From the NCBI RefSeq assembly GCF_903064525.1, contig NZ_LR797830.1, positions 1,984,001 to 2,048,000 on the forward strand: 64,000 nt of DNA, read 5' to 3'. Source of the DNA: Methylacidimicrobium sp. AP8. GTDB lineage: Bacteria; Verrucomicrobiota; Verrucomicrobiia; Methylacidiphilales; Methylacidiphilaceae. Shown in pieces: positions 12,371 through 20,903 of the stretch (position 1 is its first letter; every line of letters begins with the position of its first letter). The translations under genes were made by a program, and so were the position numbers. The notes under the pieces are model-generated. The model was not told where the DNA came from and searched no databases. It saw only the letters and a program-made list of their open reading frames with translations.

Positions 12371-14104
12371 TCAGCCCGCATCGTCGCCGAGCCCGCGCAG
12401 TTCTTCCCAAACCGCCGCAACCAGCGTCGCTAAGTTGTCGCGTCCAAAGGATAAGGGCGCTCCGGCAGCGGAAAACAAGTCGGGAAGAGGCCTCGACCCG
12501 CCCAGCGCGAGGGCGCCCCGGTATGCCTCCAAGGCTCCCTCGGGGTCCCTGCGAAATCGGCTCCAAATCGCCAAGGCGCCCAGCTGGGCGATCCCGTACT
12601 CGATGTAATAAAAAGGATATTCGAAGATGTGGAGCTGACGATGCCAGAGGGAGCCCAGAACATCTTCATATCCGGACCAGTCCTCTTTTCCGCCGAAACG
12701 CCGCACCAGGTCTTTCCAAACAGCGGCTCTTTCTTCGCGCGAATGGCCGGGATGGGTGTAGAGCCAATGCTGAAACCCGTCCACGACCGCCATCCAAGGA
12801 AGAAAACGGAGGATCCCCTCGAGATGGTTGCGGCGGGCGCGGCGTAGTTCTTCCTCTCCGTAAAACTCTCCCAGGTAGGGCGCGGCCAAAAGCTCCATGG
12901 CCATCGACGCCACCTCGCAAAATTCCAGGGGAGCGGATCGATACGCATAAAGCGGCTGGGTGCGCGCAAGGAGGGTGTGAAAGGCATGGCCGCTCTCGTG
13001 CAGCAGGGTTTCCAAGTCGCGATGGGTACCGACCGCGTTCATGAAGATGAATGGCTGTCGGGCTTCGGCAAGCGTGCTTTGGTAGCCGCCGGGAGCCTTG
13101 CCCTTGCGGTTTTCTAGGTCGACCAGGCCGTCTTGGCGCATCTGCCGGAAGAGAGCTCCTAAGGGCTTGTCCAGGGCGCAGATCACCCTTTCGGTCTTCT
13201 CTAGCAGCTCGGCGCTCGTCCGGAACGGGCGCAGGGGAGGTTTCCCATCGATGTCGACCGCTAGATCCCACGGACGCAGCCGATCGATCCCGAGCCGCTT
13301 CTCCCGCCGGGAGTCCATCTCCCGGCAGAGGGGAACGACCACCTCTTCGATCGCGCGGCCGAACTCGAGGCAATCGGCCGGGGTGTAATCGAATCGTTCG
13401 GCGCGGGCGAAGGCGTACTCGCGGTAGTCGGGGAATCCGGCGGCGGCGGCGATCTCCGTCCGCAGGGACAGCAGGCGATCAAAGATCTCCTCCAACATCC
13501 CGGCGTCCTGCAACCTGCGCCTGGCAATCTGCTCCCAGGCTGTCCGCCTTCTCTCTCGATCCGGCTCCTCGAGCACTCTCCCTACCTGGGCAAGGGTCTG
13601 TTCCCGCCCGTCGAAGGAGATGGTCATCGCCCCGACGATCTTTTGATATTGCTGGCAGAGACGCGCCTCTTCCGTCTCGCGTGCGATATTCTCCTCGCGG
13701 AAGAGGCGGACTTGCATTTCCACGCTTCGGCGAAAAACAGCGTAGGTCTCGGGAAGGGCGGCGAAGCAGGGATGCCGGTGAAAAGCGCGGAGGATCGCCA
13801 TTTGCCGTTGCTTCCTCCACGGATCGACGACGGTAAGAATTTCCAAGTACGCTTTTTCCCGTTCCGGATCGTCCGTTTGACAGGTCATCGCGATGTAGCG
13901 CTTGGCCCGCACCTCGTCCATCGCCGCCTGGACCTCATCATAATGACGAAGCCAACTCTCCAGGGCAGATACCGATCGGGCAGCGTGCAACTCTTCTTCC
14001 AGTCGCCGGAAATGACCTTCAAGAGAGCAAAGGGAGCAGAGATCGGTTTCGGCGGGGAGAAAGGAGCGCGGGACAAACGGGAGAATCGGGAAGGACGCGT
14101 TCAT
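12371..14104 (-). CDS. M3 family oligoendopeptidase (PepF-like)
   Basis: This predicted cytoplasmic zinc metallopeptidase cuts short peptides. The zinc motif HESGH is at 369-373 (LLHESGHAFH), with the third-ligand helix FCEVASMAMELL downstream as in M3 peptidases. Its 577-residue length fits the oligoendopeptidase F group. The frame is open to 14218, inside the upstream gene. ATG at 14104 lies 44 bases after that gene's stop and gives a sensible N-terminus (NASFPILPFVPRSFL). It ends the glycosyltransferase operon and may simply be a passenger. Confidence 0.85.
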   Translation of the reverse strand: MNASFPILPFVPRSFLPAETDLCSLCSLEGHFRRLEEELHAARSVSALESWLRHYDEVQAAMDEVRAKRYIAMTCQTDDPEREKAYLEILTVVDPWRKQRQMAILRAFHRHPCFAALPETYAVFRRSVEMQVRLFREENIARETEEARLCQQYQKIVGAMTISFDGREQTLAQVGRVLEEPDRERRRTAWEQIARRRLQDAGMLEEIFDRLLSLRTEIAAAAGFPDYREYAFARAERFDYTPADCLEFGRAIEEVVVPLCREMDSRREKRLGIDRLRPWDLAVDIDGKPPLRPFRTSAELLEKTERVICALDKPLGALFRQMRQDGLVDLENRKGKAPGGYQSTLAEARQPFIFMNAVGTHRDLETLLHESGHAFHTLLARTQPLYAYRSAPLEFCEVASMAMELLAAPYLGEFYGEEELRRARRNHLEGILRFLPWMAVVDGFQHWLYTHPGHSREERAAVWKDLVRRFGGKEDWSGYEDVLGSLWHRQLHIFEYPFYYIEYGIAQLGALAIWSRFRRDPEGALEAYRGALALGGSRPLPDLFSAAGAPLSFGRDNLATLVAAVWEELRGLGDDAG

Positions 14105-14148
14105 CTTGGCAGACAAGCGTTGCCACCGCCGGCAGGCGAGGGCAAGCC

Positions 14149-16566
14149 TCAATGCGGTCCGTCGCCCGACGATCCGATCGACTCCCAAAAGCGGGCGAAG
14201 GCCAGATCCCAATTCCACGATCGGCGGACCTCTTCGGCCACCCGCTCCCGCTCAGCCCGAGGCGGTGGAGAGGTCAGCAGCTCGGCGATCGCACGCGCCC
14301 ATTCTTCGGGTGAGCCGGCGCGGCACACGCGCCCCATCCCGAACCGGGCCAAAAGCTCGGGAGGCCCCCCTACATCGGAGACGACGACCGGCAGCCCGGA
14401 GCTCATGGCTTCGAGCACCGCGTTGCCGAACGTGTCGGTCGTGCTCGGAAAGACGAAAATGTCCGCGGAGGCATAGGCTTCGCTCAATGCCCTGCCCGTC
14501 AATACTCCGGTAAAGAGCGCGTCGGGAAGGAGCCGCATCAACTCCTGGCGGTAGGGCCCTTCTCCCACGAAGGCGAGGGTGAACTTCAGGCCGCGACGGC
14601 GCAACGCTTCGGCGACCGCCGGCAGAAAGCCGAGTTCCTTCTCTTTGGAAATCCTCCCGACATAGAGCAGCACCGGACCCGCCGCTCCCCTCTGCGCCCA
14701 GAAGTCCGTTCGCCGGAACGAGGGATGAAAAGCATCGACGTCGATCCCGCGCGGGAGAATCGCCAGCTTTTCTTCCGATATGCCTCGCTTGCGCCAGGAG
14801 CGGAGATATGCGGACGAATTCACATAGGTTTTCGCCATCTGGCCGTAAAACCAATCCATGTAGCTCCATGCCAGTCCTTCCATCCACGGGTCCTGACTGA
14901 GAAAGCGAGCATACTGAGGAAAGTCGGTGTGGTAGATCCCCACCGCCCGCAGTCCCAGGATCTTCCCGATCGCCAGCGCGCACAAGCCGACCGGTCCCGG
15001 CGTGCTGATGATCAGCTCGGTGAATCGTTCCTTGTAGACGAACTCAAGGAGGTCGAAGAACGGAGGAAACGAGAGCTTCTGCATCTCGTATTCCGGGATC
15101 GCGAACTCGCCGATCGGGGGGAAGTTCCGGAAGAGAATTCCGTCCACTTTCGGGTGTGCCCGCGAAGTGACGACCGTCAAATCCGCTCCGGCCCGAGCGG
15201 CAGCGCGAGCCATGGCCTGAATTGTCCTTGTCACCCCGTTGACCTCGTCGAGGGTATCGGTGAACCAAGCCCGTTTGCACAAGAGGATCTCAGCCGGAAG
15301 GGAGGAGAGATACCGGCGGCTGAGGCCGCGCAGGAAATCACGGTCCACTCCTTGGCGTTGAAAGGCCAGAAGATGGGGAGCGGCCGCCGCCGCCACCGGG
15401 AGAAGTCCGGCCAAGGATTGGAACGCCTCCAGCACGCTTCCTCTCCTCAACTGGGCGGCCGCGCCGATCAGCAGCCGGTAGACTAGCTGGCTCACCAGGT
15501 AGGATGCGACACGGAAGGAAGCGTCGACCGGCGTCGCTGCCCGCTCGATGATCCGGTCGATCTCGCCCCGTACGTCGGGATTGGTGAAGAAATCGGCGAA
15601 CGCGCGCACCAGCGTTCCCTCTCCGGGCTTGAGCAGCTCGAAGACTTGCCCGCTGCGCACCGCGGCCGCCAAGTGGCCGATCCGTTCACCCAGGGAAAAT
15701 GCCGTGGGATTTTGCCCGGAGACAAAGCGTTCGGCGATCTTTTGCAGCAGCGTCGCCGCCAGGGGAGCTGACTGCCGGAGCCGCTCCTGGGCGTACTGGA
15801 ATCCAATGTTGTAAAAGGCGATGGAAAACCGCGCCGGGTCGCCCGGCACCCCGCCACCCGTTCTGCCCCTTCCAGCAAAAAGCTCCCGGAAAAAGCCTTC
15901 GACGGTCCCGTCGTCATCGGCTTCGGTCCAGAACGAACCGGCGGCCAGCCCCCCGTGATCATTGGATCCGCCCACAAAGATTTTCTCATGGCCCGGCTCG
16001 TCGAGCGGGGCCATCCCTTGACGTTTGGCGATCTCGGCGATCCGCTCGGGCGTCAAAGCGAGCAGGCAGAGGCGTGCAATCTCCTGCGGGAGCCCGGGAC
16101 GGCTTCCGTCGGCTGTCTCGAACGCGCGAAAGAGCAAGATGAGCTTCTCGAAATGATCCGGAGTGAATTTCCCGTTGAGATTTTCCAACGGGTGGGCCAC
16201 CGCATGCGGGATGTTTCTCAAGCGGAGAAACGATGCGAGCTTCTCGATGTCGGGAGCGAGCTCCTGAATTCGCGGATGATCGGCCTCGCGCAGGTTCCAG
16301 ACCAGCAAGTGGATTTCGCAGCCATCCGGGAAGAAGGTCGTCACCTCCTCACTCAGAAAGACGTCCGGATGCCGATCCCGCAACTCCAGGCAGCCGTCGA
16401 TGCGATCATGATCGGTGATCGTCTTCCAGGTCATGCCGGCGTCGGAAAGCTTCCGGTAGAGGGCCTCAGGATCGGAGTAGCTCTGCCGGCATCCGATCTT
16501 CCGGAGGATCCACTCGGAAGGCCGGTCGGAATACCGGGAATGCAGGTGGAGATCAGCGCGAGACAT
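14149..16566 (-). CDS. Fusion of a PHP-type metal hydrolase domain and a GT4 glycosyltransferase
   Basis: This 805-residue two-domain protein has an N-terminal PHP domain (about 1-210) carrying what looks like a full metal-ligand set: DLHLHS (5-10), TDHD (51-54), SEE (72-74), H86, AHP (124-126) and NDH (202-204). The C-terminal part (about 490-805) is a GT-B, GT4-like glycosyltransferase with YHTDFPQY near 545-552, a donor-binding YVGRISKEKE near 635 and the EX7E region TDTFGNAVLEAM near 710-721. The YHTDF pattern resembles lipid mannosyl/sulfoquinovosyl transferases. About 280 residues between the domains are helical and unassigned. ATG 16566 overlaps the upstream stop by 14 bases. The PHP substrate is unknown; a phosphoesterase acting on the lipid or sugar intermediate is my guess. 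Confidence 0.8.
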   Translation of the reverse strand: MSRADLHLHSRYSDRPSEWILRKIGCRQSYSDPEALYRKLSDAGMTWKTITDHDRIDGCLELRDRHPDVFLSEEVTTFFPDGCEIHLLVWNLREADHPRIQELAPDIEKLASFLRLRNIPHAVAHPLENLNGKFTPDHFEKLILLFRAFETADGSRPGLPQEIARLCLLALTPERIAEIAKRQGMAPLDEPGHEKIFVGGSNDHGGLAAGSFWTEADDDGTVEGFFRELFAGRGRTGGGVPGDPARFSIAFYNIGFQYAQERLRQSAPLAATLLQKIAERFVSGQNPTAFSLGERIGHLAAAVRSGQVFELLKPGEGTLVRAFADFFTNPDVRGEIDRIIERAATPVDASFRVASYLVSQLVYRLLIGAAAQLRRGSVLEAFQSLAGLLPVAAAAAPHLLAFQRQGVDRDFLRGLSRRYLSSLPAEILLCKRAWFTDTLDEVNGVTRTIQAMARAAARAGADLTVVTSRAHPKVDGILFRNFPPIGEFAIPEYEMQKLSFPPFFDLLEFVYKERFTELIISTPGPVGLCALAIGKILGLRAVGIYHTDFPQYARFLSQDPWMEGLAWSYMDWFYGQMAKTYVNSSAYLRSWRKRGISEEKLAILPRGIDVDAFHPSFRRTDFWAQRGAAGPVLLYVGRISKEKELGFLPAVAEALRRRGLKFTLAFVGEGPYRQELMRLLPDALFTGVLTGRALSEAYASADIFVFPSTTDTFGNAVLEAMSSGLPVVVSDVGGPPELLARFGMGRVCRAGSPEEWARAIAELLTSPPPRAERERVAEEVRRSWNWDLAFARFWESIGSSGDGPH

Positions 16567-17293
16567 AGCGAAGGTAACTGAGAGGGCGGCTCCCTCGATC
16601 GAGGACCCGCTTGACGATCCGCTCGATCTGATCACGGATCGAACCGTAAAGAAAATCCCCCGGATGGACGCTGACACGGACCACCTGCCGGACCGCCTCC
16701 CGCGAAAGCAGCCGGTTCCATGCGAGCGAACAGGCTCGCCGCCAACCCGCCCGGGTGCTCCAACAGTGAGTCCGGGCGGGAATCCATCGTTGCGCCGGAC
16801 GGAGGGTCAATATCCCACCGATCCGCGTCGTGTACCGGAAACCTTCGCGCGCTAGAATCGGCCAGAGGCGCGGATGCATCAGCCAGCCGGGCGCCACGAA
16901 CCCTTCGGCGGGCCAACCCTGCGCTGCGAAGAGCTCGCGCGCGCAGCGGAGGCGCTTCGCCGCCTCGGCCGGCGGCAGATCGAAAAACTCCGCCTCCCTC
17001 CGGGTATAAATCTCGGTCCAAAACCAGCTCCGCCAGTCGCTGGCGCCAGCCTCGCGCCAATGAAAGTAACCGTGCACAACGGCCTCATCACCCGCTTCCC
17101 TCTGGAGGTCGACCCACCGGCAGAACTCGCCGTCTTCACAAAAGAACGATCCGCAATGGTAGGCCGGAACGACGAGCAGGCTCGCTTCCCTCACCCCCCA
17201 TTCCCGCAGCTTCTCCCGCTGCCGGGCTACGAGCGAAAACGAACCCGGGTGGACGTCGTGGAGAGAGACGATCAGCGCAGTCCCTTCGTTCAT
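16553..17293 (-). CDS. DUF2334-type polysaccharide deacetylase family protein
   Basis: This 246-residue NodB-like barrel has the DUF2334 signature SLHDVHPGS near the N-terminus, where the Asp-His metal site lies. Other landmarks are VVPAYHCG, VVHGYFHW (second His region), EGFVAPGWLMH and a C-terminal RVSVHPGDF. Relatives are predicted to remove acetyl groups from sugars. ATG at 17293 forms an ATGA overlap with the GNAT gene; the frame upstream of it overlaps GNAT. Sitting between an acetyltransferase gene and a glycosyltransferase fusion, it probably edits an N-acetyl sugar on a glycolipid (inference), as in GlcNAc-PI or bacillithiol-type deacetylations. Confidence 0.78.
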   Translation of the reverse strand: MNEGTALIVSLHDVHPGSFSLVARQREKLREWGVREASLLVVPAYHCGSFFCEDGEFCRWVDLQREAGDEAVVHGYFHWREAGASDWRSWFWTEIYTRREAEFFDLPPAEAAKRLRCARELFAAQGWPAEGFVAPGWLMHPRLWPILAREGFRYTTRIGGILTLRPAQRWIPARTHCWSTRAGWRRACSLAWNRLLSREAVRQVVRVSVHPGDFLYGSIRDQIERIVKRVLDRGSRPLSYLRYVSR

Positions 17294-18000
17294 TCGCGCG
17301 AAGGCGGACAGGAGCCGTACAGTCGAGGATTGGCCTGAAGGTCTTTGACCACGGTGCAGAGGTACACCGACCCGGAAAACCACCCGGCATATTTGGTCAC
17401 CGGCACCCGGTCGACCACCCGGAATCCATAGCGCTCGAACATCCGTTCCCCGCGGCGGCGATCGAAGACGACAACCTGGCCGTAGACGGCCCGCTCACCC
17501 TGTCGGACCAGATAGTCCAAAAACGAATCCACCAGCTCCCGGGTGCGCGGCACGCTGCGCCACGGCGCCAAAATGTTGAAGTGAAAATGCGGGGTGTCCG
17601 GAAGGCTTCGCGGAGATTCGCGGCGTCCGTGCCAAAGGAGCCAGCGGAGATATCGCCGGCTAGAGGCCCGATAAGACGGATAGCGGGCCAGCACGCGCAG
17701 GAAGAACCGCACATTGTGAACAAGGTGATACCGCGCCTTGGCCCTCGGCTTCCGGCATCCCGTCAAGTAGCCGACGATCTGCCCGCCCGCCTCGCAAACC
17801 CAAGCCGATTCCGGCTCCTTGTCCGTGTAGTAGGAAGTCAGGTAGTCGGCGAAGAGCTCGCGATCCTCGAAGACCGGATCGATTGGAGAGCCCAAAAAAC
17901 CGGTATCCGCGCAAACCCGACGAACTCCCTCCCGATCGCTCGCACGATAGGGACGGATTGTGACGACCTCCGTCTCCCTCCCTGCCGCAGCCGTGCTCAT
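17290..18000 (-). CDS. GNAT family N-acetyltransferase
   Basis: This 236-residue protein begins with a GNAT strand-helix unit (VVTIRPYRASDREGVRRVCADTGFLG) and has the core AWVCEAGGQIVGYLTG, then the acetyl-CoA fold with HFHFNILAPWRSVPRTRELVDSFLDYL and the C-terminal strand RYGFRVVDRVPVTKY. Such enzymes move an acetyl group from acetyl-CoA to an amine. The acceptor is unknown; in this operon a sugar or lipid amine is likely. ATG at 18000 lies 27 bases after the GT4 stop. Confidence 0.8.
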   Translation of the reverse strand: MSTAAAGRETEVVTIRPYRASDREGVRRVCADTGFLGSPIDPVFEDRELFADYLTSYYTDKEPESAWVCEAGGQIVGYLTGCRKPRAKARYHLVHNVRFFLRVLARYPSYRASSRRYLRWLLWHGRRESPRSLPDTPHFHFNILAPWRSVPRTRELVDSFLDYLVRQGERAVYGQVVVFDRRRGERMFERYGFRVVDRVPVTKYAGWFSGSVYLCTVVKDLQANPRLYGSCPPSRE

Positions 18001-18027
18001 CTTTCCGCTCTCTCCCCGGCTCGCCGG

Positions 18028-19239
18028 CTACTCCGTCGGAACCGCTCCCGTCGGAAGCTCCGCCTTCTCGAGGGCCGGAGCACCCCCTCCCATCGCCAAC
18101 CGGTAATAGCGCCAAAGTCCCATGAAAACGTTCGGCCAATCATAAATCTCTCTCGTCCGCACGGAAGCCGAAATGCCGATCTGCCGCAGGTCCTGGTCGG
18201 CGGCACGCTCGATCGCCTCCGCCAGCTCCTCCGCGCAATTTCGGTGCGCCCACAATTCCAGGCCCGCATGGATATGATCATCCATGTTGGTCCCACGGAT
18301 GCCGATGACTGGGCAACCGCAGGCCTGGCTTTCGACAGCGACAAGCCCGAAGGTTTCGACGACTCCCGGATGGACGAAAAGGTCCGCCGCCCGATAGCAT
18401 CTCCGCAGCTCCGTCTTCTCCTCGATGTAGGGGCGCCAGATCACCGCATCGGTCTCCTCCTGCAACCGCCGCACCTGCTGCCTGAGCGGCCCGTCGCCTA
18501 CCACCAGGAGCCGATAGTCGCGTCGACGCGAAGCGCGCAGGGCTTGGAAGGCGCGCAGCAAGACCGAAATGTTCTTTTCGCGCGCGAGCCGCCCTACGTA
18601 CAGGAGCAGAAAGGCGGAATCGGGCACCGCGAGCTCTTCTCGCCAGGCCCGGCCGTCCGGTCCGGGACAAAACGTCCGCGCATCAACCCCGAGGCGAATC
18701 GGAATCGTATTCCTCAACCCCCAAGACTCCAAAAGCCTTTGGAGCGTGGCCGAGGGCACGAAGGTGTACCGGAAACGGGCGTACAAGCGGACAATGTACC
18801 TCCGGGCTGCAGAGAAGAGCATCTGCTCGACCAGTCGGCCCCCGAAGCGGCAAGCCGTGCGCAAATAGGCATCCGGAAAGTGGGAATGATAGAAAGCGAC
18901 GGCCGGAATACCGAGCTCGCGGGAACTCCGAAGGACCGTCCACGCCAGATGATAGGGATCTCCGGATTCGACGATGTCGGGGCGAACCTCGCGCAGAATC
19001 GAGCGGACCAGCGGAACGTTGCAAAGGATACGATAGCGCGAGGTCCGGTCGATCTTCGGAGACGCTATTGTGATCAGGTGCGTCCTGCCTTCACACTGGT
19101 GCGTGGTCCTTTCGCCCGGCACGATCAGATAGTGCTCATCCTCCGTCCGCTCCCGGACATATTCCTGCTTTTCGCCCAGATAACGCCTCACCCCGCCGCT
19201 GCGCGGTGAATAGAACTGGGTTACGTCACAGATCTTCAT
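18028..19239 (-). CDS. GT4-family glycosyltransferase
   Basis: This 403-residue GT-B enzyme has an N-terminal acceptor domain with YSPRSGGVRRYL and AFYHSHFPDAYL. The C-terminal donor domain has LYVGRLAREKN, VVGDGPLR and the EX7E motif VVETFGLVAVES. The YHSHFP signature resembles the YHTDFP of the fusion protein two genes downstream, so the two may add successive sugars to the same lipid acceptor. It is the first gene of the minus-strand operon GT4-GNAT-deacetylase-PHP/GT4-oligopeptidase. It is divergent from the porin across a 197-base gap. Confidence 0.85.
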   Translation of the reverse strand: MKICDVTQFYSPRSGGVRRYLGEKQEYVRERTEDEHYLIVPGERTTHQCEGRTHLITIASPKIDRTSRYRILCNVPLVRSILREVRPDIVESGDPYHLAWTVLRSSRELGIPAVAFYHSHFPDAYLRTACRFGGRLVEQMLFSAARRYIVRLYARFRYTFVPSATLQRLLESWGLRNTIPIRLGVDARTFCPGPDGRAWREELAVPDSAFLLLYVGRLAREKNISVLLRAFQALRASRRRDYRLLVVGDGPLRQQVRRLQEETDAVIWRPYIEEKTELRRCYRAADLFVHPGVVETFGLVAVESQACGCPVIGIRGTNMDDHIHAGLELWAHRNCAEELAEAIERAADQDLRQIGISASVRTREIYDWPNVFMGLWRYYRLAMGGGAPALEKAELPTGAVPTE

Positions 19240-19436: not shown

Positions 19437-20903
19437 GTGGACAAGCAACCCCATTTTGTTCCGGCGAGATTCCGAGCTTTGCCTACGCCGGCCCCTGTCA
19501 TTCCGAGCGGTTCCCCGGAGTTCTCCCTGCCCGCGCGGCTTTTTGCAACCTTGGCTTGGATCGGATTTTCCTCCGTGCTCCCGGCCAGAGCCCAGTCCGA
19601 TCCTACGCTCGCCACGACGAGCGCCGCCGTCCCGGGCACGGCCGAGCTCCAAAAGGCGCTCGAAGAGGGCGGGATCGCCGTCCAAACCGTGCGTCCGGGC
19701 ATCCGGCTCGCCGGATATCTGGACAGCTCCTTCGTCGACAACTTCATTCCCCCCAATGCTCGAATTCCGACCCGGATGGCCGACGACGGGATCGCCGGCG
19801 GGGGATTCAACTTCAACGCCGTGCGGCTGCTCCTCGAAAGGCCGCTGGATGATCAGAACCGATGGGAAATGGGATTCCGTGTGGATCTTTTCGCCGGCCA
19901 GGATGCGGCCTCCATGGGAGGACCGGACAACCTGGCCGGACTGGGAGTCCCCACGGAGGCGGGGAACGCGCGGAACACTTCGAGCTTCCTGCTGGCCGAA
20001 GCCTATATCCTCCTTCGCATTCCCGTCGGGAACGCCATCGACCTGAAGATCGGGAAGTTCGTTCCTCCCTTGGGATTCGAAGTGATGGAGCGCCCCGCCA
20101 ACCTCAATTTCACCTATGGCAACCTGTACAGCAACCTGATCCCGGAGATGGTCACCGGAACGGAGGCGGTCTATCGACCGGTCGATTGGGTAGAGACCAC
20201 GCTCGGAGTGCTCGATGGATCGTTCAACGCTGCGCGAGCAGGATTCCCCTTCTTCGGGGAAAGCACGAATAGCCTCGGCAGCGCAGAGGCCTATCTTTTT
20301 CTAGCCTCCGCAGCCTTCGACGCTCCCGCGCGCAACGCCCGGCTGGTGGCCAGCGCCCTCTATGGGCCCGACGGCGCCGACCCTCCCGGATTCGGATTGG
20401 CTCCGTCCATTCCGGGGAGCGGGGTTTTCGTCCAAAGCCCCCTGAACCGCGCGGCGCCGTTTTTCTTAGGCGATATCTGGGGGGAGTGGATTCCCAAAGC
20501 CGCGCGCGACCGCATCCTGCTCGCTTGGGAAGCCACGGGCGGCTTCTACGAAGGCGTTGCCGCTCCCGGGGCCGACTCGCTCCAGGCTTCCCATTGGCTC
20601 GGAGCCAGCCTCTGGGCTCGATACCAGATAAGCAGCTTCGTCAGCTTCGCCCTCCGGACCGACTGGATTCATGCGAGCGCCAACGAGATCCTCCCGGAGC
20701 ACATCGGACCGGAAGACATCTGGAGCGTGACGGGGACCGTCGGCTTCGACATTTGGGAGAACCTGATGGTGCGAACCGAGTTCCGGATGGATTGGGGTGC
20801 GGCGATCTACGGCACCCCGATTTTCCCGACCGGAACCCTCCTCTTCCCCCTTTCGAGCGGTCCTGCGTTCCTTTGGGCGGTGGAAACCGTCTACTCGTTT
20901 TGA
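19437..20903 (+). CDS. Outer-membrane beta-barrel porin (OmpL/BBP2-like)
   Basis: This 488-residue protein has a signal peptide (LPARLFATLAWIGFSSVLPARA, cut after ARA) and a barrel made of alternating aromatic and hydrophobic strands. The barrel shows LAGYLDSSFVDN, LIPEMVTGTEAVY and WARYQISSFVSFALRTDWI, and the protein ends in the C-terminal aromatic motif VETVYSF expected for BAM insertion. It matches the plan of putative beta-barrel porin-2 proteins. The start is uncertain: GTG at 19437 puts about 30 residues before the signal core and has no good ribosome-binding site. A TGTCATTCCGAGCGG stretch in the leader resembles dispersed bacterial repeats. The 3' end is overlapped by the antisense protease reading frame. 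Confidence 0.75.
   Translation: MDKQPHFVPARFRALPTPAPVIPSGSPEFSLPARLFATLAWIGFSSVLPARAQSDPTLATTSAAVPGTAELQKALEEGGIAVQTVRPGIRLAGYLDSSFVDNFIPPNARIPTRMADDGIAGGGFNFNAVRLLLERPLDDQNRWEMGFRVDLFAGQDAASMGGPDNLAGLGVPTEAGNARNTSSFLLAEAYILLRIPVGNAIDLKIGKFVPPLGFEVMERPANLNFTYGNLYSNLIPEMVTGTEAVYRPVDWVETTLGVLDGSFNAARAGFPFFGESTNSLGSAEAYLFLASAAFDAPARNARLVASALYGPDGADPPGFGLAPSIPGSGVFVQSPLNRAAPFFLGDIWGEWIPKAARDRILLAWEATGGFYEGVAAPGADSLQASHWLGASLWARYQISSFVSFALRTDWIHASANEILPEHIGPEDIWSVTGTVGFDIWENLMVRTEFRMDWGAAIYGTPIFPTGTLLFPLSSGPAFLWAVETVYSF

Follow-up and report, generated by a model that had tools for sequence, protein, structure and literature searches.

Glucosaminyl-phosphatidylglycerol (GlcN-PG) was observed as early as the 1960s, yet the genes behind it were not described until 2025, and then in a single species, Pseudomonas aeruginosa, in which gpgS and gpgD mutants, together with expression in Escherichia coli and lipidomics, showed that N-acetylglucosaminyl-phosphatidylglycerol (GlcNAc-PG) and then GlcN-PG are formed (PMC12713373). 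In Bacillus megaterium, GlcN-PG increases in acid (cited in PMC12713373). Here, a possibly related gene set was analyzed on the minus strand at positions 14149-19239 of a 64,000-nucleotide stretch of Methylacidimicrobium sp. AP8 (contig NZ_LR797830.1, positions 1,984,001 to 2,048,000; hereafter, the window), which is part of the 2.30-Mb single-contig genome of an acid-loving, methane-oxidizing bacterium. The set encodes a GpgS-like glycosyltransferase of family GT4, a GNAT-like protein, a GpgD-like deacetylase of the DUF2334 type, and a PHP-GT4 fusion, and these four genes are a real, conserved and co-inherited unit. We give about an even chance to the proposal that they constitute a pathway of four components, akin to GlcN-PG synthesis, that makes a membrane lipid bearing an aminosugar. 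On the best reading, the GT4-DUF2334 core would be a new relative of the GpgS/GpgD pathway, with a pseudo-acetyltransferase partner and the PHP-GT4 protein as added parts. In transcriptional order, the genes are as follows:

18028..19239, minus strand: GpgS-like GT4 glycosyltransferase, 403 amino acids, with E295-x7-E303 and YHSHFP (NCBIfam NF053787)
17290..18000, minus strand: GNAT-fold protein assigned to the O-GlcNAcase HAT-like family, 236 amino acids (PDB profile and fold)
16553..17293, minus strand: DUF2334 polysaccharide-deacetylase-type enzyme, GpgD-like, 246 amino acids (Pfam PF10096, NCBIfam NF053788)
14149..16566, minus strand: PHP-GT4 fusion, 805 amino acids (Pfam for GT4; AlphaFold2 and fold for PHP)
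12371..14104, minus strand: M3-family oligoendopeptidase, judged to lie outside the set (TIGR02289)

The best NCBIfam match of the GT4 protein is NF053787, the GlcNAc-phosphatidylglycerol synthase (GpgS), at 275.8 bits over model positions 1-357 of 361. The DUF2334 protein scores 64.3 bits against Pfam PF10096 and has a sole NCBIfam match, NF053788, the GlcNAc-phosphatidylglycerol deacetylase (GpgD), at 166.9 bits over its full length; its profile gave no match in the PDB. Judged by alignment, the catalytic residues of both enzymes are intact: E295 and E303 of the GT4 protein are present in 34/34 relatives with a residue at those positions, and D13, H74, H78, H210, and D213 of the DUF2334 protein are invariant in all 107-109 aligned relatives with a residue there. 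A preliminary description of this DNA had reported YHSHFP and YHTDFP signatures, both of which are present in the glycosyltransferase proteins, and had envisaged a glycolipid that is built and edited, which fits the resemblance to GpgS and GpgD. Its statement that the set is not a characterized pathway was half right, since the GT4-DUF2334 core has a characterized relative in the GpgS/GpgD system of P. aeruginosa described in 2025.

The next-best NCBIfam family for the GT4 protein is MshA, and the enzyme classes of the set parallel MshA, MshB, and MshD. A low-molecular-weight thiol pathway resembling that of mycothiol or bacillithiol was weighed, in which GT4 would make a GlcNAc conjugate, PHP would remove a phosphate, DUF2334 would deacetylate, and the GNAT-like protein would act like MshD; a thioredoxin reductase gene also adjoins several GT4-GNAT pairs. 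However, the MshA and BshA matches are weak (73.1 bits with a cut-off of 462.5, and 54.3 bits with a cut-off of 273.7, respectively, versus 275.8 bits for GpgS), the GNAT-like protein lacks acetyl-CoA motifs, and no cysteine ligase lies within the set (the genome was not searched for MshC or BshC). Moreover, MshB and BshB use a PIG-L type deacetylase, not DUF2334. The thiol pathway was rejected on its low MshA and BshA scores, and we consider it very improbable.

Gene order was compared in 40 fetched loci. All four genes stand together as GT4-GNAT-DUF2334-PHPGT in 25 of them across the taxonomic order, at identities down to 37-47%. PHP-GT itself was found in 60/60 relatives searched, some by partial matches only, and is 83-88% identical to the homologues of Methylacidimicrobium tartarophylax, M. 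cyclopophantes, and strain LP2A. In an independent scan of ~85,000 species genomes, 219 stretches encode PHP-GT relatives. The details of that scan cover the best 80 of the 219, nearly all of which are labeled as Verrucomicrobia or one of its subgroups; the labels of three, from metagenome-assembled genomes, read Bacteroidetes, Betaproteobacteria, and Acidobacteria (as recorded), and a few have no phylum label. Within these best 80, DUF2334 lies directly upstream of PHP-GT in 74, and all four genes occur together in 16.

Co-occurrence was assessed in 207 genomes of the class, using thresholds of E <= 1e-50 for the GNAT-like family and E <= 1e-90 for GT4. PHP was found in 69 genomes, DUF2334 in 67, GNAT-like in 67, and GT4 in 68; 73 genomes have at least one of the families, and 62 of these have the full set. 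Pairwise co-occurrence was significant at Fisher p < 1e-40, a value that is not corrected for shared ancestry. When split, the set mostly sits as two pairs at separate loci, GT4-GNAT and DUF2334-PHPGT, and because such splits are frequent, the co-occurrence does not merely reflect physical linkage. Outside the class, strong GNAT-like matches (E < 1e-60) occur in the same three genomes of the phylum as strong DUF2334 matches (G213, G245, and G287); the two genes adjoin in all three, and PHP-GT is present in each. In addition, GNAT and DUF2334 share a single reading frame in 11 distinct open reading frames (ORFs) of one lineage (several records labeled Verrucomicrobia subdivision 6), while GT4 and GNAT are fused in a single 703-codon frame at L191. 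These two kinds of fusion are good evidence for a shared step.

The splitting of the set into two loci in part of the class might suggest that the cluster is an incidental co-localization of unrelated envelope genes. Co-occurrence despite the split, the two kinds of fusion, and an order conserved across identities of 37-57% argue against this explanation, which is close to refuted. Rather than the unconserved order and scattered genes that would have spoken against the preliminary description, order is kept in 25 of the 40 loci and the families are co-inherited in 62 of the 73 genomes. Outside the order, a thioredoxin-reductase-like gene lies beside the GT4-GNAT pair at L173 4023-5057, L175 5235-6278, L177 4655-5965, and L179 6880-7809.

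The GNAT assignment of the second gene product was confirmed by profile and fold, although the protein scores under Pfam's GNAT cut-off. A profile built from 20 relatives matched SsAT (4bmh) at E 1.3e-22 and OgpAT (3zj0) at E 1.5e-6 in the PDB, and more weakly the histone acetyltransferase (HAT)-like domain of eukaryotic O-GlcNAcase (OGA; 6r45) at E 0.006 and full-length O-GlcNAcase at E 0.2-0.3. For a fused relative, modeled at a predicted local distance difference test (pLDDT) score of 87.5, the best four fold matches all belong to the HAT-like family (SsHAT, OgpAT, and eukaryotic OGA). Profile and predicted fold thus place the GNAT-like protein in the O-GlcNAcase HAT-like family. When aligned to SsAT (4bmh), the GNAT-like protein shows RSVxxT where SsAT has the P-loop QGRGYG, and Phe188 in place of Tyr234. 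The acetyl-CoA P-loop motif [Q/R]xxGx[G/A] was found in 0/51 distinct GNAT-like sequences and, in the register of the 4bmh alignment, the catalytic tyrosine is replaced by phenylalanine in all 50 sequences with a residue there; the acceptor motif HxHxN is kept in 51/51. Binding of acetyl-CoA is absent from eukaryotic pHAT domains (PMC12494797), and OgpAT lost it when three of its P-loop residues were replaced by their human counterparts (PMC3814719).

Because the P-loop and tyrosine are lost, HxHxN is kept, and neither OgpAT with a humanized P-loop nor eukaryotic pHAT binds acetyl-CoA, the GNAT-like protein is predicted to be a pseudo-acetyltransferase that retains the acceptor pocket. The acetylation that had been ascribed to the gene set is accordingly doubtful, and functional acetylation by this protein was disfavored once the P-loop and tyrosine had been checked. 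Alternatively, the protein might be an active acyltransferase that uses an atypical donor site to put a new acyl group on the amine freed by deacetylation, with the result that N-acetyl is exchanged for another acyl group. This would fit both the conserved acceptor motif and the occurrence, in Verrucomicrobia of subdivision 6, of a single protein with the deacetylase; the uniform loss of the P-loop and of the tyrosine, along with the behavior of humanized OgpAT (PMC3814719), makes it unlikely. As a broader and speculative extension, rather improbable in our estimation, the HAT-like family in bacteria could be a non-catalytic GlcNAc/GlcN-recognition or coupling subunit, and the pHAT domain of human OGA an old sugar-recognition partner as opposed to a degenerate histone acetyltransferase. 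This suggestion arises because HAT-like domains share a protein with the putative GlcNAc-lipid glycosyltransferase in one lineage, with the deacetylase in a second, and, in animals, with the O-GlcNAc hydrolase of family GH84.

The 805-residue fusion comprises a PHP domain (~1-235), a helical linker (~240-430), and a GT4 domain (~470-800) that is supported by Pfam and in which Asp709 replaces the first Glu of EX7E. The PHP domain has no Pfam match at E 0.01, and its best PDB sequence match is at E 0.6. In contrast to this silence, the AlphaFold2 model of residues 1-430 (pLDDT 87.1) has best Foldseek matches that are all PHP (E 3.7e-7 to 1.6e-4), led by the RNase AM PHP domain (7ug9, E 3.7e-7) and then 2anu, 7rty, and 3e0f, and the metal ligands H7, H9, H53, E73/E74, H86, H121, H125, D203, and H204 are all present. 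Among homologues, H121, H125, and D203 are kept in 105/105 and the remaining ligands in most, with some relatives differing at H7, D14, E73, or E74. The PHP-GT fusion of the preliminary description is thus borne out by predicted fold and metal ligands: the PHP domain is real on this basis, and its phosphoesterase activity is putative. Nothing relevant on PHP-GT fusions in Verrucomicrobia was found in the open-access literature (subscription journals were not covered). At L057 7588-9968, in an otherwise complete, Methylacidiphilum-like genome (G011), PHP and GT are two ORFs of 278 and 574 amino acids, either a split gene or a frameshift.

PHP-GT also matches several exopolysaccharide (EPS) glycosyltransferase models, and polysaccharide loci commonly hold GT4 and polysaccharide-deacetylase-type genes. 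The set might, therefore, modify a lipid-linked or cell-surface polysaccharide (lipopolysaccharide core or exopolysaccharide), with the GT4 enzymes adding sugars and DUF2334 de-N-acetylating one of them. The compact set, however, contains no recognized gene for a polymerase, flippase, or ligase, and there are few other recurrent neighbors. For the GT4 protein, no EPS model comes near the GpgS score, and GpgS and GpgD are predicted to be cytoplasmic (PMC12713373). Such a role is possible but has the lesser claim, with a low probability.

For the proposed aminosugar-lipid pathway, we infer the product and substrates as follows, next to an anatomy, conservation, fusions, folds, and residue status that were observed or computed. 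By analogy with GpgS, the GT4 enzyme would transfer GlcNAc, probably from UDP-GlcNAc, onto a lipid acceptor, most likely phosphatidylglycerol. The DUF2334 enzyme, judging from GpgD and the conserved catalytic residues, would then strip the N-acetyl group to leave a positively charged glucosamine head group. Because it is fused to GT4 and to DUF2334 in relatives, the predicted GNAT-like pseudoenzyme may bind the amino- or acetamido-sugar substrate or couple GT4 to the deacetylase. PHP-GT4 would attach a further sugar, either to this lipid or to a parallel one, and its PHP domain would probably remove a phosphate or clear a phosphorylated product, the weakest step of the scheme.

Several observations weigh against this scheme. 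The GT4 protein (275.8 bits) falls short of the NF053787 equivalog cut-off of 480, and the DUF2334 protein (166.9 bits) of the NF053788 cut-off of 280, for which reason they are termed GpgS-like and GpgD-like and not members; no genome exceeds these cut-offs among 96 and 289 genomes of the phylum, respectively. The acceptor and sugar may therefore differ from those of GpgS and GpgD. Lipid data for these organisms were not found, and the operon has no GpgF-type (UPF0104) flippase gene. Two PF03706 proteins (LPG_synthase_TM, the UPF0104/GpgF type) are encoded far from the set in the window's genome (G000 C1:577489-578385 and C1:137726-138619), both candidate flippases. At L059 (6898-8097) and L060 (6833-7975), the PHP-GT4 homologue lacks the PHP domain while GT4, GNAT, and DUF2334 are kept nearby. 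Finally, PHP-GT4 is more widespread, being encoded in many genomes from the phylum's other classes that have no strong match to the GpgS, GpgD, or GNAT-like profiles. Its reaction could thus be a distinct one, and PHP-GT4 might form its own product, on which the other three components build.

Related genes were also encountered elsewhere. A second GpgS-like GT4 paralogue occurs in genus g2 (one record named Methylacidiphilum), at G007 C1:1382489-1383649, G009 C30:20718-21881, G010 C1:166669-167844, and G012 C1:1131494-1132669; none was found in the window's own genome at the threshold used for that genus. On plasmid pTB1 of Sphingobium yanoikuyae (L193 3986-8574), a GpgD-like deacetylase and a GpgS-like GT4 (174 bits) lie a few genes apart with a hydrophobic hypothetical protein between them, possibly a related aminosugar-lipid cluster in Alphaproteobacteria.

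With respect to gene arrangement, the junctions read from the DNA are a 27-nt gap between GT4 and GNAT-like, an ATGA overlap between GNAT-like and DUF2334, and a 14-nt overlap between DUF2334 and PHP-GT4; a further 44-nt gap separates PHP-GT4 from the M3 oligoendopeptidase gene. The ATGA or short overlaps reported previously thus apply to two of the four junctions. Likewise, five co-directional ORFs are indeed present, but the enzymes named earlier amount to four genes, because only two GT4 domains exist and one of them is inside the fusion; the fifth ORF is the M3 peptidase (493 bits against TIGR02289, exceeding the model's cut-off). Among the fetched loci, this peptidase is next to the four genes within the family and, in part, in one further family, but nowhere else; it was rejected as a pathway member because adjacency is confined to near relatives. 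Three tandem M3 peptidase paralogues lie downstream of PHP-GT at L028 9991-15175. Directly upstream of GT4 in the window is a divergent beta-barrel porin-2 (BBP2, OmpL-like) gene (19437-20903, plus strand), whose position is kept in several family members. Other recurrent neighbors in the survey of relatives' loci are chiefly antisense or syntenic ORFs and housekeeping genes.

If the proposed pathway is correct, a relative of aminosugar-phospholipid synthesis extends through much of Verrucomicrobiota and reaches methanotrophs from strongly acid habitats, in which a cationic head group would be useful. The set would add two testable components to this pathway, the GNAT-like protein and PHP-GT4. 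Free-standing and fused bacterial HAT-like pseudo-acetyltransferases in a GlcNAc-related pathway would also offer a tractable system for studying the role of this domain (PMC12494797).

Among known systems, the P. aeruginosa gpgSDF operon (PMC12713373) likewise combines, in one operon, a GpgS-family GT4 and a GpgD-family DUF2334-type deacetylase, the families to which the two window proteins have their full-length best matches. In contrast to gpgSDF, the window set falls below both equivalog cut-offs, has no flippase gene in its operon, and carries a gene for a predicted GNAT-like pseudoenzyme between GT4 and DUF2334 and a PHP-GT4 fusion after both. For the GNAT-like protein, the closest matches in both sequence and fold come from the HAT-like family (OgpAT 3zj0, SsAT/SsHAT 4bmh, and OGA pHAT 6r45; PMC3814719, PMC3919268, PMC12494797). 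It shares with eukaryotic OGA the lack of an acetyl-CoA P-loop, and with that family an association with enzymes known, or expected from homology, to work on GlcNAc. Its partners by operon or fusion, however, are a glycosyltransferase and a deacetylase, not a GH84 hydrolase, and unlike OgpAT and SsAT it has lost both the P-loop and the active-site tyrosine. The PHP domain shares its fold and most metal ligands with the PHP phosphoesterases RNase AM/YciV (7ug9, 9etk), TM0559 (2anu), BAD_1165 (3e0f), and the Cv amidohydrolase (2yb1), differing in being too divergent for Pfam and in being joined through a helical linker to GT4. The mycothiol and bacillithiol pathways resemble the set in broad enzyme classes only (GT4, deacetylase, and GNAT fold), and differ in deacetylase family, in the low MshA and BshA scores, and in the ligase, which is absent from the set (the genome was not searched for it).

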